Positions 35,517 through 40,790 of a stretch of DNA of 64,000 nt are shown piece after piece. The position numbers and the translations under genes were made by a program. The DNA comes from Strigamia acuminata (lineage: Eukaryota > Arthropoda > Chilopoda > Geophilomorpha > Linotaeniidae). Position 1 is the first letter of the stretch. Every line of letters begins with the position of its first letter. Location: contig OX442314.1 of NCBI GenBank assembly GCA_949358305.1, positions 29,931,118 to 29,995,117 of the forward strand, written 5' to 3'. The notes beneath the pieces were generated by a model, which had not been told where the DNA came from, did not search any database, and was given only the letters and a program-made list of their open reading frames with translations.

Positions 35517-38500
35517 TTATACAAATAGAATTGTCATTATGAAAAATTGGCAAATTATGATAGCTAACACAGAAACACCGAGAAGTAGACCAAAAATGTT
35601 GCCTACATCAGAAACTAAGGCAACAAATGAATATTTAAATTCTTCAAAAAAAAATTCTATTTTATTGGTAGTGAAAACAATGTTCACTATCGATGTATCC
35701 GGTAGCATAGGTGCAAAACTGAATTCGTTAATTTTGAAAATGGATTGTTCACAAGGTGAGGGACAAGCACAATCTTTCGTAATGTCGGTGTTTGTGTGTA
35801 TTTCATAGTATAATGTTCTAACTGCTTTGGCCGCTGCTGAAGAATTGCAGAAAGCGATGTCTTTCTTGATGGCAAATGGCATACTGTTGGATAAACAAGA
35901 ACATAAATGATCGAAACAAATTCCACTCATTTGCATAAATTTACCTGCACAACTGTTTACTTTTTATCTTCTTGTCCAAGCACTGGTCTTTACAGTGGGA
36001 ATAATCTATTGGATCTGAAGTACAAGGCTTAAATTTTGTGTTTAGATAATGTACCTAAAATTAATATTTTTTAAACCGGTTTATAATCATATAAATATTA
36101 AAATGATTTATTGTACATACTTTCAATCTGCTAATCAAACTCGAAGTGCTGAACGAAGAAGGCAAAGCAGAGTTAAAATCGTCCGCGAAATTAGGAGTTT
36201 CACTTGCAGTGATATACACCTAAAGGTAACAAAATTATTGCATAGCAGAGGGTATGAGTTTGAATTCAATGCATTAATTTACCAAATATATTACATCTCA
36301 TTTTGTATATTGTCATAAGAATAATTTTTTGTCAATTTTTAACATTTCTTATGTGTATTCTAGCTTAAAGGTCAAAAGACTTTGTAACTTTCTTTACATT
36401 GTGTTCAGCCGAAATACAGACTACTATGGATTATGTGTTTACTGTTTTAAAATAAACATCCAAAACAAATTTTAAGTTAAAATAAGATTTAAGTTATATA
36501 CTGTATTGTGATGGCAGGATCTTAACCAGAGCAGCTAGGAAACCAGTTACCCTTGTATGGGACGCGTGCTTACAGAAAATAAGAGACAAGGACTCCAGAC
36601 TGTTGGGTTGTTGACATTTAATCCGTTGTCCAGGGGTCAGAATCTTAGTGTAACCTACGTGCTGGCAGTGCCACTTGGGCACGCCACACCAGCAACTGAC
36701 CCGTCACACACACAGAGGTTATCCCATGAATGATGTGTTCGATATCTTAACTATTCCCTCGTACTTACCATGGCCCATGCAACCAATCGTGGAGGCTGTG
36801 GTAGATTCATCAGCACTGAGCGTCACACGTGTTTATAAACTACAGACGCTACAGGAATCTTTGCGTGACTAATGCATCTGACGGAATTATTGACTCAAAA
36901 CGGCAAGTTCCCTGCTCAGAATGCGCTAACCTCACCTCACCTCACCTTAACAGGGTCAAATAAAACAAAACAAAGCAAAACAAATCAATCTAAAACCCTC
37001 ACAGAGGAAAAGAGGATAAATTCAAAAATTCAACGCTGTTTTGGTCATACTGTGTAAATGACTTTTAATGATGAGTTTATTGTTGTTTATTTAATTTATT
37101 TTAGCATTATTAGGCCTAATAATAGCCTTAATACTGCTAAATAACAACTGGAATTGGACAATCGTCTGCGCAGAATGGGGCGCGCAGTACGAATTTAGCA
37201 TCAAGATACCGTGCGCGAACTGTAGGTCAGACCACTCCGCAAAGGAGGGATGACCTTGGGGTCATTGGGCAGTGTGTGACAGTGAAGCAAATCACCCATG
37301 GGTGGGCAAGCGGTCACAATATAGCTTGTCTTTAGCAGAACAGTTGTGTGTTCTGACTGTACTACGTATAAGGATTAAAATAAAACGTAACGTGCACAAT
37401 AACACAAAATAATGAAGTTAGTTTGAAACTTACTGATGTGAAATCAGGCTTGCATGGATTGTTTTCCACTTCGAAGATTATTTCAAGAAACATGGTGAAT
37501 AATCGAAATTTTATTGGACCTAATGAGAAGAAGTTTATTCAACTATATTTTTTCTTTGTGGCTTAAAACTCATTAATCACCAAAGGAATGTTTGACACAC
37601 GTTCCATGCGGACTTACAATGTTCGTATAATTTCGAACGTCAAATAGGTCTCCCGAAAATGGATTCTGAAAATTATGTTATGTTTTAATCTATCAATTTA
37701 ATAAAATCGTTTTGACAAATTCACGATGGTGCTCCACATTGATTTTACTTACAAACATTTGGATAAGTTTCAAATCCGATGGTGCTGTATAAGTAAGATC
37801 CCACAGTTGATTTACAGTTAATCCTTTCCAGTTGACAAGGTCCAACATGTCAATATTGCATTTTGTATCATTCGGTTTGTGGTGGTTTAGATATTCTTCT
37901 TTTAATTCGATTAGAGCTGGGTTGTGTGGTCCAGCACAAATGATAATGTTCGGATACGTTACTGTTGGCAAATCTTCTATCAATACGCTTCTTTGAATGG
38001 GTTTGTTCACAAATAATCGAATTCTTTGTTGAACCAAATACCCTCCGAATCCAAAAACACAAAGATAATGAACCCAAAAGAATGGATTTTTAATTGACAG
38101 CAGAATTTGCATTCTTTTAGTCTTTTGGCTGGTTTTGAAACAGGTTTCAATTTTTCTTGTCATGTGATTTTTTGGGCCAAATGGCTTCTTTGTATACCAT
38201 TTTGCAATGACCCAAACGAATTTGATCAAGAAAAGTGAAGAAAATCCTAACCAAAGACCCAAATTTCCACCAAAGTCAGAAAAAAGACTGATAAGATCGT
38301 AGATCAAGCGTTCTTTCAAAATGGTAACATGATCGTCGAGCAAATACCAAGAGATCGATGATCTGCCACTGCCATCGTGTTCCAATTCGAATTTGGGTAA
38401 AATCAGAGAGTCTTCACAACTTCTTGTGCATCTGCAGTCGGACACGGGTGTAGGTGTCATAGCATCGTGCATGTTTTCTTTGTACATACGTAGCGTATTT

Positions 38501-40790
38501 TCGGAATTGCTGCAAAGCTGAATGTGGCTTCTATTTGGATAATTTGGCCTGTAGGGTAACCTGTCGAGAAATGTGTTAAGAGAGTAAAGATTTTGTTTTT
38601 ATAAACAATTTGCCAAACTCACCAACATGGATTTTTGTCCAAAATCTTATTCACGCATTTATTGCCACATTCTATGTATTCCTTCATCAGAATGCAAGGT
38701 TGTTTTTTTGTGTTTTTGAATACATGCTTAAACAAATCACGATTCGGTTAGAATATTTCCTCACGCCTGAGCCAAGCTATCATAACAGTAAGTTGAAATC
38801 ACATATTTTCTCTTTTTTTTGGATCATTTGATTCAAGACTTCCGACAGTACTTTCGAATATTCTACTTTATAGTGTTACAATGTTCTCTGACATGTGATT
38901 GTGAATTTATTGTCAGGCCTTTTTTGAACTAACAAAATCGAATGATGGGTTTGCTCACAAAGCAAAACTCATTGTTTTTTATTCATCATTGTTACCTTTC
39001 TTGGGTAAAATCCGATTTTTGCAGACATTCCCGAAGTTAAGGCAAATCCTGCTTGGAAATCCAATGGCCATGCAGTTAATACCTAAAATTAGATTTTGCA
39101 ACTGTAGATTTGTAAGTGGAATTAAACCAATTGATGTCATCGTATGGTTCGAGAAAATTTATTGTCCGCATAAAATAGTTTTATTTAGACTGAGGCTTAC
39201 GGCTTACAAAAATGTATACAGTAAAATATAGGATCCTGTATTGTAGGACTGGAAACATCACGGCGGAGGATCGAATCGTTGCCATCCGAATCAGCGGATT
39301 GGGATCCAGCATTAATCTCTCTCAGCAACAAGATCCAAAACTTTTGCAGGAGGGATCTCCGAAAACGGATGGCCAAAAAAAGCTGGCTGAAAAGGAGCGA
39401 AGGATGCAGACTCGAGCGGGAGACTGAACTGTGAGCACCTGGACTCAATTGTAAGTTTGGGCTTAGTACTTTGTTGACATATGGTCTAATGTAATTGGGT
39501 TATTATTACAAGTATATGGTATTACTTTATTTCATTTTCATTTAGCTGGCTTTCACAGGGCACCTTGCGCTCTTTAGTCTATATTTTCTCATGTTCTTTC
39601 CGGCTGTCACCAGACGGCGCCATATATCATTCTGTTATCAATCGCTAAGATGGCGAACACAAGCATTAGCGATGCCACATTGTTTTCCCAGGTCTGTAAG
39701 TTTATTTTGTGCAATTAAATTTTTTTGTTTCCATATTTACAGTTAGTATTCAATGCTATGCATGCCTGTCAATATCGTGTACTTCGCTATTGGCAGTGTT
39801 GTATCTCATTCATTAAATTGTGAACGCGTTCAAGTTCGTGTTTATGACTATGTGAAAGTGTTCACGTTTGCTTCACTAAATTTTTTTCTGAATTAAACTA
39901 AGTTCAAGTTTATGAACTTGAATTCAAAGTTTTAACAAAGGACTTTCCAATCCCCAGGGATGATGGTTATACGTTTTATATAGACAAAGTTTAAAATATT
40001 TTACCAGCGTTAGAGATTTTCCTCGTATCAATTCCGGTATTTTTAAGTAGTAACCCTTTGTAGCACATATTTCAGGCCCACGCAGAGTTCTGTTGTCTAA
40101 AAATTAAAAAAAAAACTATAAATTGCTCGAATCAATAAGAGATCGATTTTATAAATTCACCTTCAACTTTGCTACAAGTACCTCTTGGATGCAGTACTTG
40201 CGTAATAGTTGCATTTTCTAGGACATGTGTCTAACAAAATCAGACACACATTAGAATCAAAATTGAATTTGAACTTTAATAAACATCTAGTGCGTAGTTT
40301 GTTACAAACTTACTTTTCGCTGACGCCTACTGTCGAAGGAGAAGTAGTCCTCAACGATATTAAAACTGTAGTTCAAATTCCACAACTTGGTAAGATCAAC
40401 ATCTGGTCTTGTTACGAGTGCATCCAATGGGTTCAGAGAAGCCATGTCAGTCGCTTCTAAGTCGGACGAGTTATAGTAATCCAACACGTACTGATTTAGT
40501 GGTATGCAAACATGAGTGGGTCGAAACTGATACTTTTCGATCTTCTCTTCAAAAACATCGACTGCAGTTGGACTATCCAAGTAATAAGAAATGCGATCGT
40601 ACATTTGATAGCAGTATATGAGAATGCAGACACCAAGAAGAACAGCCCAAAAGAACCGAAATGCAAGTGTTTTGTTCTTATCAATCATTGGTTGAAACTC
40701 TCGAGGAATTGTTGTTTCGATGTTTTGCCTTTCGAGTAAATGTCTCACTTGATGGCGGATTGTTCTGCGGGATCGTCGTTTCATTTCCAT
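35517..40790 (-). CDS. DEG/ENaC gene B: two channel subunits fused in one protein, intact
   Basis: Sodium-channel family protein of the plasma membrane. Eleven exons join in one frame: 40790-40314, 40230-40161, 40096-40005, 39082-38996, 38726-38623, 38560-37753, 37665-37581, 37519-37434, 36219-36121, 36054-35945, 35883-35517. The total of 2385 nt gives 794 residues. Subunit 1: membrane segment 1 at about 43-62, Cys-rich ectodomain with an NPCW motif at 274-277 and DCRCTRSC, then segment 2 with filter GFS at about 382-384. After a basic linker, subunit 2: segment 1 at about 437-456, HGTCVKHSF, CSMPFAIKK, DCACPSPC, and segment 2 with GVS. Each half is about 400 residues, short for the family (usually 450-650). 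The His-Gly gating motif before segment 1 is not seen. Nearly all splice sites are strong GT-AG. Ion selectivity and gating are not predictable. Confidence 0.9.
36220..37433. other. Long intron of gene B
   Basis: 1.2 kb between exons 8 and 9; the gene A equivalent is only 63 bp. It shares its sequence with the gene C intron (45157-46119), so the expansion predates the B/C duplication. Around 37200-37320 is a GC-richer stretch with a GACCGCTTG-type string (reverse strand) also found at 57491-57510, suggesting an older dispersed repeat. Confidence 0.5.
39083..40004. other. Intron of gene B without recognised element
   Basis: Contains sequence near 39390-39460 (GAGCGGGAGAC, TGTGAGCACCTGGACT) matched in the gene C intron near 52230-52285. 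A CACCAGACGGCGCC string is at about 39609-39622. No gene. Confidence 0.45.

Follow-up and report, generated by a model that had tools for sequence, protein, structure and literature searches.

A Strigamia acuminata gene predicted to encode two DEG/ENaC subunits in one chain, and the genome-wide family of doubled channel genes to which it belongs

Gene B, encoded on the minus strand of the window (the whole 64,000-nucleotide stretch of S. acuminata DNA analyzed here), is predicted to yield a single four-pass chain containing two different DEG/ENaC subunits, which on balance probably take two neighboring places of a trimeric cation channel. Matches throughout the genome rule out gene B as a lone oddity: an open exon spanning the joint between two such units, which we call a doubled exon, occurs in at least 289 distinct places. 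Tandem subunits occur naturally in channels with a four-repeat pore; a natural two-unit tandem in a trimer-building family poses a clean, testable stoichiometry problem.

The gene B model, rebuilt from the sequence, joins 11 exons into 2385 nt encoding 794 amino acids (Table 1). It reproduces the exon number, length, and continuous phase proposed in the sequence-only reading, with GT...AG at all ten introns and one stop codon in the frame, at its end. The least certain splice site is the exon 5 acceptor at 38726. A later acceptor, which gives 2340 nt, was dropped in favor of this one, which yields 2385 nt and brings in residues with homology to unit 2. Exon 6 begins with the end of the unit 1 Cys-rich region, followed by TM2, the linker, TM1 of unit 2, and the start of the unit 2 ectodomain. 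The basic linker of about 40 residues, read earlier as lying within one stop-free exon, measures 37 residues, 10 of them Lys or Arg and one acidic.

Table 1 Features in the window (positions count from its first letter).
Feature	Positions	Strand	Content	Basis or remarks
Gene A	44453..56944	-	Close gene B paralogue	Open frame of doubled exon 46410-47261
Gene B	35517..40790	-	11 exons	Rebuilt from sequence
Gene B exon 1	40314..40790	-	Start ATG, cytosolic N-terminus, unit 1 TM1, ectodomain start	Splice sites, phase
Gene B exon 2	40161..40230	-	Unit 1 ectodomain	Rebuilt model
Gene B exon 3	40005..40096	-	Unit 1 ectodomain	Rebuilt model
Gene B exon 4	38996..39082	-	Unit 1 ectodomain	Rebuilt model
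Gene B exon 5	38623..38726	-	Unit 1 Cys-rich part	Acceptor picked by homology to unit 2 counterpart
Gene B exon 6 (doubled exon)	37753..38560	-	808 nt, stop-free	
Gene B exon 7	37581..37665	-	Unit 2 ectodomain	Rebuilt model
Gene B exon 8	37434..37519	-	Unit 2 ectodomain	Rebuilt model
Gene B exon 9	36121..36219	-	Unit 2 ectodomain	Rebuilt model
Gene B exon 10	35945..36054	-	Unit 2 Cys-rich part	Rebuilt model
Gene B exon 11	35517..35883	-	Unit 2 Cys-rich end, TM2 with G-V-S filter, stop codon	
Gene C	29956..33313	-	Doubled gene, second family	First-exon ATG 33289; doubled exon in open frame 29956-30819
Last exon, gene C family	8326..8694	-	Unit 2 TM2	~21 kb from gene C doubled exon

Each unit taken alone matches the Pfam ASC profile well above the cut-off of 23.6 bits (66.9 bits for unit 1, 66.5 bits for unit 2), and each carries a G-x-S filter. 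At the level of single exons, the open frame of exon 1, with a hydropathy peak at residues 42–60, matches PF00858, and that of exon 11 does so with 49.2 bits. Mean hydropathy exceeds 1.5 in three of the four membrane segments, unit 2 TM1 falling short. The units contain 13 and 14 cysteines, respectively, and the spacing matches for many of them. One unit per chain is a usual, non-defining DEG/ENaC feature; here, two share a frame. An S. maritima protein, the predicted and uncharacterized T1ITL7 (805 amino acids), is 37% identical over 99% of the query, has the same two-unit architecture, and exceeds a mean hydropathy of 1.5 in all four membrane segments. The earlier claim of two complete subunits per chain is upheld at the DNA level, and the arrangement recurs in paralogues and in the predicted protein of a second Strigamia. 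The protein database returned no homologue for a second-family query and none outside Strigamia, which is weak evidence of absence since the search needs shared short words. The words pickpocket, degenerin, amiloride, and sodium channel are all absent from the main text of the S. maritima genome paper, which lists 'sodium transport' among the functions enriched in lineage-specific duplications.

Doubled exons were open in 132/143, 114/138, and 136/143 matches of the individual query searches, and stops or a partial exon were found in 38 of 327 doubled-exon places. The order first, doubled, last exon recurs in 168 places, with exons intact or not, a count that includes trios with a broken exon, such as gene A. 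It comprises 78 trios assembled from the stronger matches (first exons, 94 of 150; doubled exons, 86 of 143; last exons, 93 of 150), another 6 on C11 whose doubled exons came from a further search, and 84 of the second family, for which every matching row was used. The doubled exon of gene A is 87% identical to that of gene B; gene A is probably a pseudogene because its exon 1 contains an in-frame stop and its last exon a frame break. Gene C shows a weak exon 5 match at 31159-31061, and the distant last exon of its family in the window is taken as its putative terminus; exons between this and the gene C doubled exon were not found. Three-unit chains, sought among exon-order patterns genome-wide, were not established. 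One N-D-D-T pattern dissolved into two partial doubled-exon matches ~6 kb apart that jointly cover one exon, and an N-D-D pattern of the second family, with doubled exons 14 kb apart, may be two genes, the other exons being unranked among scored hits.

The joint itself appears maintained as protein. Linkers of doubled genes measure 36–45 residues and carry a net charge of +3 to +15 (48 aligned linkers, S. maritima included). Tested against omega 1, linker omega is 0.577 (2dlnL 15.3) in one family and 0.661 (2dlnL 9.6) in the other, so that purifying selection acts on the linker in each of the two families tested. The open doubled exon of gene B is more than chance because 289 places are open and the linker is under purifying selection. 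No stop lies between the units in gene B or in any of the 289 open places, and the stop plus new start that would mark a two-gene message (a dicistronic pair) is absent. The co-transcription partner of the Drosophila DEG/ENaC gene llz is presumably a CheB gene rather than a second channel subunit. The llz gene itself is reported to be co-transcribed in an operon-like unit (PMC2827562); as predicted for gene B, a message is common to a DEG/ENaC gene and its neighbor, but by co-transcription without fusion.

The nearest solved relatives are trimers with one unit per chain. PDPNaC1 of Scolopendra subspinipes mutilans is described as a homotrimer from centipede antennae (PMC12714832), and BRTNaC1, also reported from centipede antennae, is termed trimeric (PMC12804983). 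Both match each gene B unit in sequence, but they are single-unit channels with solved chains of 421 and 431 residues, against 794 residues and two units in gene B. A man-made counterpart also exists: artificial ASIC concatemers with 19-residue linkers are reported to form functional trimers (PMC10329638). These are likewise joined C-terminus to N-terminus, but they are laboratory products of three units, whereas the centipede chains are natural, hold two, and have longer linkers under selection. Since 19 residues suffice there, linkers of 36–45 residues should be long enough. In the favored arrangement, the third place of the trimer would likely go to a single-unit subunit or to half of another chain. 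In this reading we infer an uncut linker, pore-lining by both units, and the number of chains per channel. An AlphaFold2 model (mean pLDDT 41.6), whose alignment held T1ITL7, T1IS61, and 18 doubled exons with the outer parts covered by two rows, was uninformative on assembly.

Three chains might instead build two linked trimeric pores, one all unit 1 and the other all unit 2, a reading that we consider unlikely. The G-x-S filter in TM2 is kept by both units (52/52 distinct unit 1 rows, 27/27 unit 2 rows), units 1 and units 2 group apart and differ consistently, and 36–45 residues could, by length, span to a neighboring pore. However, the ASIC concatemers assemble within one trimer (PMC10329638), and conserved TM2 residues are missing from unit 2, making a pore built from unit 2 alone less likely in the second family. 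Specifically, a Gly-Gly pair early in TM2 is present in 51/52 unit 1 rows, 0/27 unit 2 rows, and 11/11 single-unit rows, and the TM2 Asp is also missing from second-family unit 2 (11/11 rows). Unit 2 may line the pore differently or lie outside it. The Gly-Gly pair is a common DEG/ENaC feature, not a strict criterion.

It is improbable, in our estimate, that the chain is a polyprotein cut in the basic cytosolic linker to release two subunits in equal amounts. The abundance of Lys and Arg, in gene B and across the 48 aligned linkers, would suit such cleavage, but the linker is conserved as protein, and DEG/ENaC topology places it in the cytosol, beyond the reach of furin-type enzymes. We give somewhat less credence to alternative messages encoding single units, either by polyadenylation in the doubled exon or by skipping exons 5 and 6, which in gene B would remove 912 nt in frame. 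S. maritima T1IS61 (514 amino acids) resembles an exon-skipped form, being without the doubled exon and joining first-unit exons to later second-unit exons; AATAAA or ATTAAA hexamers are present in 25 of 47 linkers, and the gene B ATTAAA lies at 38094, at the linker end. Yet T1IS61 also appears to keep unspliced intron sequence and could be an erroneous gene model, a message cut within the linker would have no in-frame stop, the hexamers are explicable by A-rich Lys, Asn, and Ile codons, and the linker frame is held by selection. An artifact, whether a fortuitous open frame or two adjacent genes fused by the prediction, is very improbable: dead copies do exist, as the broken gene A next door and the 38 of 327 damaged places attest, but the joint lies within one exon with no intron in 289 places and in the predicted protein of a second species, and the last exons of the same families, short frames ending after TM2, indicate that a stop is possible there.

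The fusion that created the two-unit chain is likely old and single. Intron phases read 0,1,0,0,2 in unit 1 of gene B and again 0,1,0,0,2 in unit 2; unit 1 of the second-family gene L072 has the same series, and the two boundaries read in the single-unit S. acuminata gene L076 are of phase 0 and phase 2. A nine-gene tree has one branch, with support of 99/96, that splits units 1 from units 2, and the order within the tree is nearly mirrored on its two sides. Grouping the eight second-family units together is disfavored (p-AU 0.022), a group named after earlier trees were seen. Units 1 separate from the single-unit row as a clade with just 71/62 support. When the first-exon half is used by itself, units 1 and 2 of the second family cluster weakly (support 76), which conflicts with a single fusion. 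A separate fusion event in the second family, hinted at weakly by that half, is disfavored by the last-exon half and by both halves combined; the trees agree with one old fusion, apart from this weak conflict for one family. The event, which likely happened once, would have merged the final coding exon of a channel gene and the initial coding exon of its neighbor into a single exon, and the doubled gene would then have been copied as a unit to give tandem arrays.

In two-pore-domain potassium (K2P) channels, two 2-TM units occur naturally in tandem within one chain, so that fewer chains are needed per pore. Gene B likewise has two 2-TM units per chain, but the fold and filter of K2P channels are unrelated, and their four units split evenly by two whereas the three of a trimer do not, leaving an odd place in the centipede case. 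A doubtful variant has two chains (four units, 1-2-1-2) forming one pore in a receptor-scale family of Strigamia hetero-concatemers; if true, it would break the DEG/ENaC rule of three, much like paired two-unit potassium-channel chains. The earlier statement that no natural ENaC concatemer had been described is not contradicted by the open-licence literature, where titles and abstract starts among the matches listed contain no natural DEG/ENaC concatemer. The concatemer experiment has been run many times in nature, in a single genome with no fewer than 289 open doubled exons, two unit types, and a linker that is conserved, and the centipede chains could reveal how subunit order and asymmetry set DEG/ENaC gating and selectivity. 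Family size, tandem arrays, and broken copies suggest a sensory, receptor-like role, and the doubled genes may constitute a large set of soil-centipede receptors that has been overlooked.

An HG motif ahead of TM1 is typical of DEG/ENaC channels. It is absent from all nine unit 1 rows and from the single-unit row, and the letters HG precede unit 2 in 4 of 48 linkers. Judged by these rows, its absence is not specific to doubled genes, and assignment to DEG/ENaC rests on the Pfam profile.

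Rebuilding gene B confirmed the 11-exon, in-phase frame proposed by the sequence-only reading (see the table for its extent). The acceptor of exon 5 was set at 38726, where the extra residues gained are homologous to the matching part of unit 2; a later acceptor yields a model 45 nt shorter. Within exon 6 (808 nt), unit 1 closes with its Cys-rich end and TM2, and the frame reads on through the linker into TM1 of unit 2. The basic linker, previously put at about 40 residues within one exon, measures 37 residues, of which 10 are basic and one is acidic. The claim of two DEG/ENaC units in one chain is also sound: exon 6 is open through the linker, and unit 1 alone and unit 2 alone each pass the Pfam ASC cut-off and separately match BRTNaC1 and PDPNaC1, two centipede channels with solved structures. 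The natural tandem is a confirmed observation at the sequence level, extended here from a single gene to a large family.

We searched the S. acuminata assembly (237.5 Mb, 157 contigs). The window lies within a 66,985,994-base contig and is taken as part of chromosome 1; the genome note describes 158 scaffolds that total 237.5 Mb, the longest of 66,985,994 bp, and 11 chromosomes (PMC10556566). With the doubled exon of gene B (end of unit 1, linker, and start of unit 2) as query, at least 143 places were found, 132 of the 143 open across the linker. The doubled exon of gene C, representing a second family, added at least 138 further places, with 114 of the 138 open, although some stops may fall outside the exon because this query carried intron sequence at its start. 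A third, distant type from sequence C11 matched at least 143 places (136 of 143 open). Merging the three queries gives at least 289 distinct open doubled-exon places among at least 327 in total, a few of them identical copies. The encoded protein stretch is identical for three doubled exons located on two chromosomes, a sign of recent copying or assembly duplication.

Locations of the features described in the text (window positions unless a sequence is named)
Feature	Position	Strand	Description
Gene B	40790 to 35517	minus	11 exons, GT-AG introns, 2385 nt, 794 residues, single terminal stop
Broken open frames	41444-42650	minus	between genes A and B
Repeated words	34480-34660		ataacgaat type
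Gene C last exon	8326-8694		as used in the joined tree
Gene C gap	8326-29956		doubled exon to nearest second-family last-exon sequence
Protein-identical doubled exons	C3:11014299; C6:2863754; C6:2938079		same protein stretch
L075	C4:7358000-7364000		three DEG/ENaC last exons

First (N), doubled (D), and last (T) exons follow one another on the same strand in at least 78 trios of the first set, counted from the stronger matches, which comprised 94 of the 150 first exons, 86 of the 143 doubled exons, and 93 of the 150 last exons. Six more trios on C11 were ordered by hand using doubled exons from the third-type query, and the second family contributes at least 84, counted from all rows listed for it; these counts include trios containing a broken exon. 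Incomplete sets comprise 8 N, 7 T, 6 NT, 4 D, 1 DT, 1 ND, and 1 NDDT beside the 78 trios, and 38 N, 25 DT, 25 T, 16 D, 16 NT, 11 ND, and 1 NDD in the second family; absent partners are expected in both, since each search gave at most its best ~150 matches. No three-unit chain is demonstrated by the exon sets listed for the first set, C11, and the second family. Gene C itself may be interrupted: its doubled exon lies ~21 kb from the nearest second-family last-exon sequence, and its short exons were not found between the two. At L075, three last exons spaced ~2.3 kb apart carry a G-x-C rather than G-x-S filter and probably belong to single-unit genes in a compact array. Given the size of the doubled family, its arrays, and its broken copies, these chains may serve as environmental receptors.

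The ten introns of gene B have phases 0,1,0,0,2,0,1,0,0,2, an identical five-intron series in each unit that recurs in the first five introns of the second-family gene L072. In the single-unit gene L076, the two boundaries read have phases 0 and 2, and a stop closes the last exon. By these series, the doubled exon is equivalent to a last exon running directly into a first exon, and the fusion likely arose by loss of the DNA between two neighboring genes, including the first gene's stop. In a tree of last-exon halves, units 1 of three families form one clade (97) and units 2 another (95), with mirrored family order. The first-exon halves agree for two families and group second-family units 1 and 2 weakly (76). 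With both halves joined for nine genes, one branch separates units 1 from units 2 (99/96), and keeping second-family units together, a grouping chosen once the earlier trees were available, is disfavored (p-AU 0.022); the unit 1 clade stands apart from the one single-unit row with just 71/62 support. The best reading of these trees is one old fusion that would predate the split of the two Strigamia species.

The sole full-length relative found in the protein database outside the S. acuminata genome, S. maritima T1ITL7 (805 aa; 37% identity at 99% query coverage), carries both units, joined by a longer linker region; a second-family query found no homolog there. A profile search added S. maritima T1IS61 (514 aa), a predicted protein that bears on alternative messages as a rival to the doubled chain. 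It joins the early part of unit 1 to the later part of unit 2 without the doubled exon, and joining exon 4 to exon 7 would be in frame by the gene B phases; its model also contains apparent retained intron sequence. T1IS61 may be either a real isoform or a faulty model. AATAAA or ATTAAA hexamers, present in 25 of 47 linkers, count among the points against the doubled chain and probably reflect A-rich Lys, Asn, and Ile codons; the whole window holds 221 AATAAA versus 129 expected from dinucleotide shuffles. Of 60 doubled exons, 47 were aligned, 27 from the first family (together with S. maritima) and 20 from the second family, after removal of 11 that contain stops and 2 identical ones. Codon models of the linker only gave omega 0.577 (2dlnL 15.3 versus omega 1) and 0.661 (2dlnL 9.6) for the two families, the 2dlnL values being approximate because just three kappa values were used to fit the null; the flanking coding parts range from 0.44 to 0.64. 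By these models, the linker evolves as protein.

The two units differ near the TM2 filter. Gly-Gly occurs in 51 of 52 distinct unit 1 rows and 11 of 11 single-unit genes versus 0 of 27 unit 2 rows. The preceding Asp is found in 52/52 unit 1 and 16/27 unit 2 rows and is absent from 11/11 second-family unit 2 rows, while the G-x-S filter is present throughout (52/52 and 27/27). Judged by TM2, the predicted chain is a pair of unlike units. The mammalian ENaC alpha subunit also deviates from Gly-Gly at that position, so its loss does not place unit 2 outside the pore. The HG motif before unit 1 TM1 is absent in 9 of 9 genes checked, likewise in the single-unit row.

PDPNaC1, as DEG/ENaC channels are, is described as a trimer (PMC12714832), as is BRTNaC1 (PMC12804983). 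Each unit has both its ends in the cytosol, a topology compatible with a chain that crosses the membrane four times and has its linker on the cytosolic side. Artificial ASIC concatemers are reported functional with 19-residue linkers (PMC10329638); the linkers of the aligned Strigamia doubled exons have 36–45 residues. On these grounds, the predicted doubled chain is expected to take two neighboring places of a trimer, and the third would go to a single-unit partner, also encoded in the S. acuminata genome, or be filled by one unit of another doubled chain. Alternatively, two chains could form a pore of four units; a homotetrameric ASIC1a has been reported and the unit number debated (PMC4529235). 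Three chains could instead build two linked trimers, or the chain could be cleaved within the linker. AlphaFold2 on T1ITL7 with a 20-row alignment returned pLDDT 41.6 and pTM 0.29.

By eye, the broken frames beside gene B are retrotransposon gag-like, and the repeated words at 34480-34660 are possibly a small mobile element.
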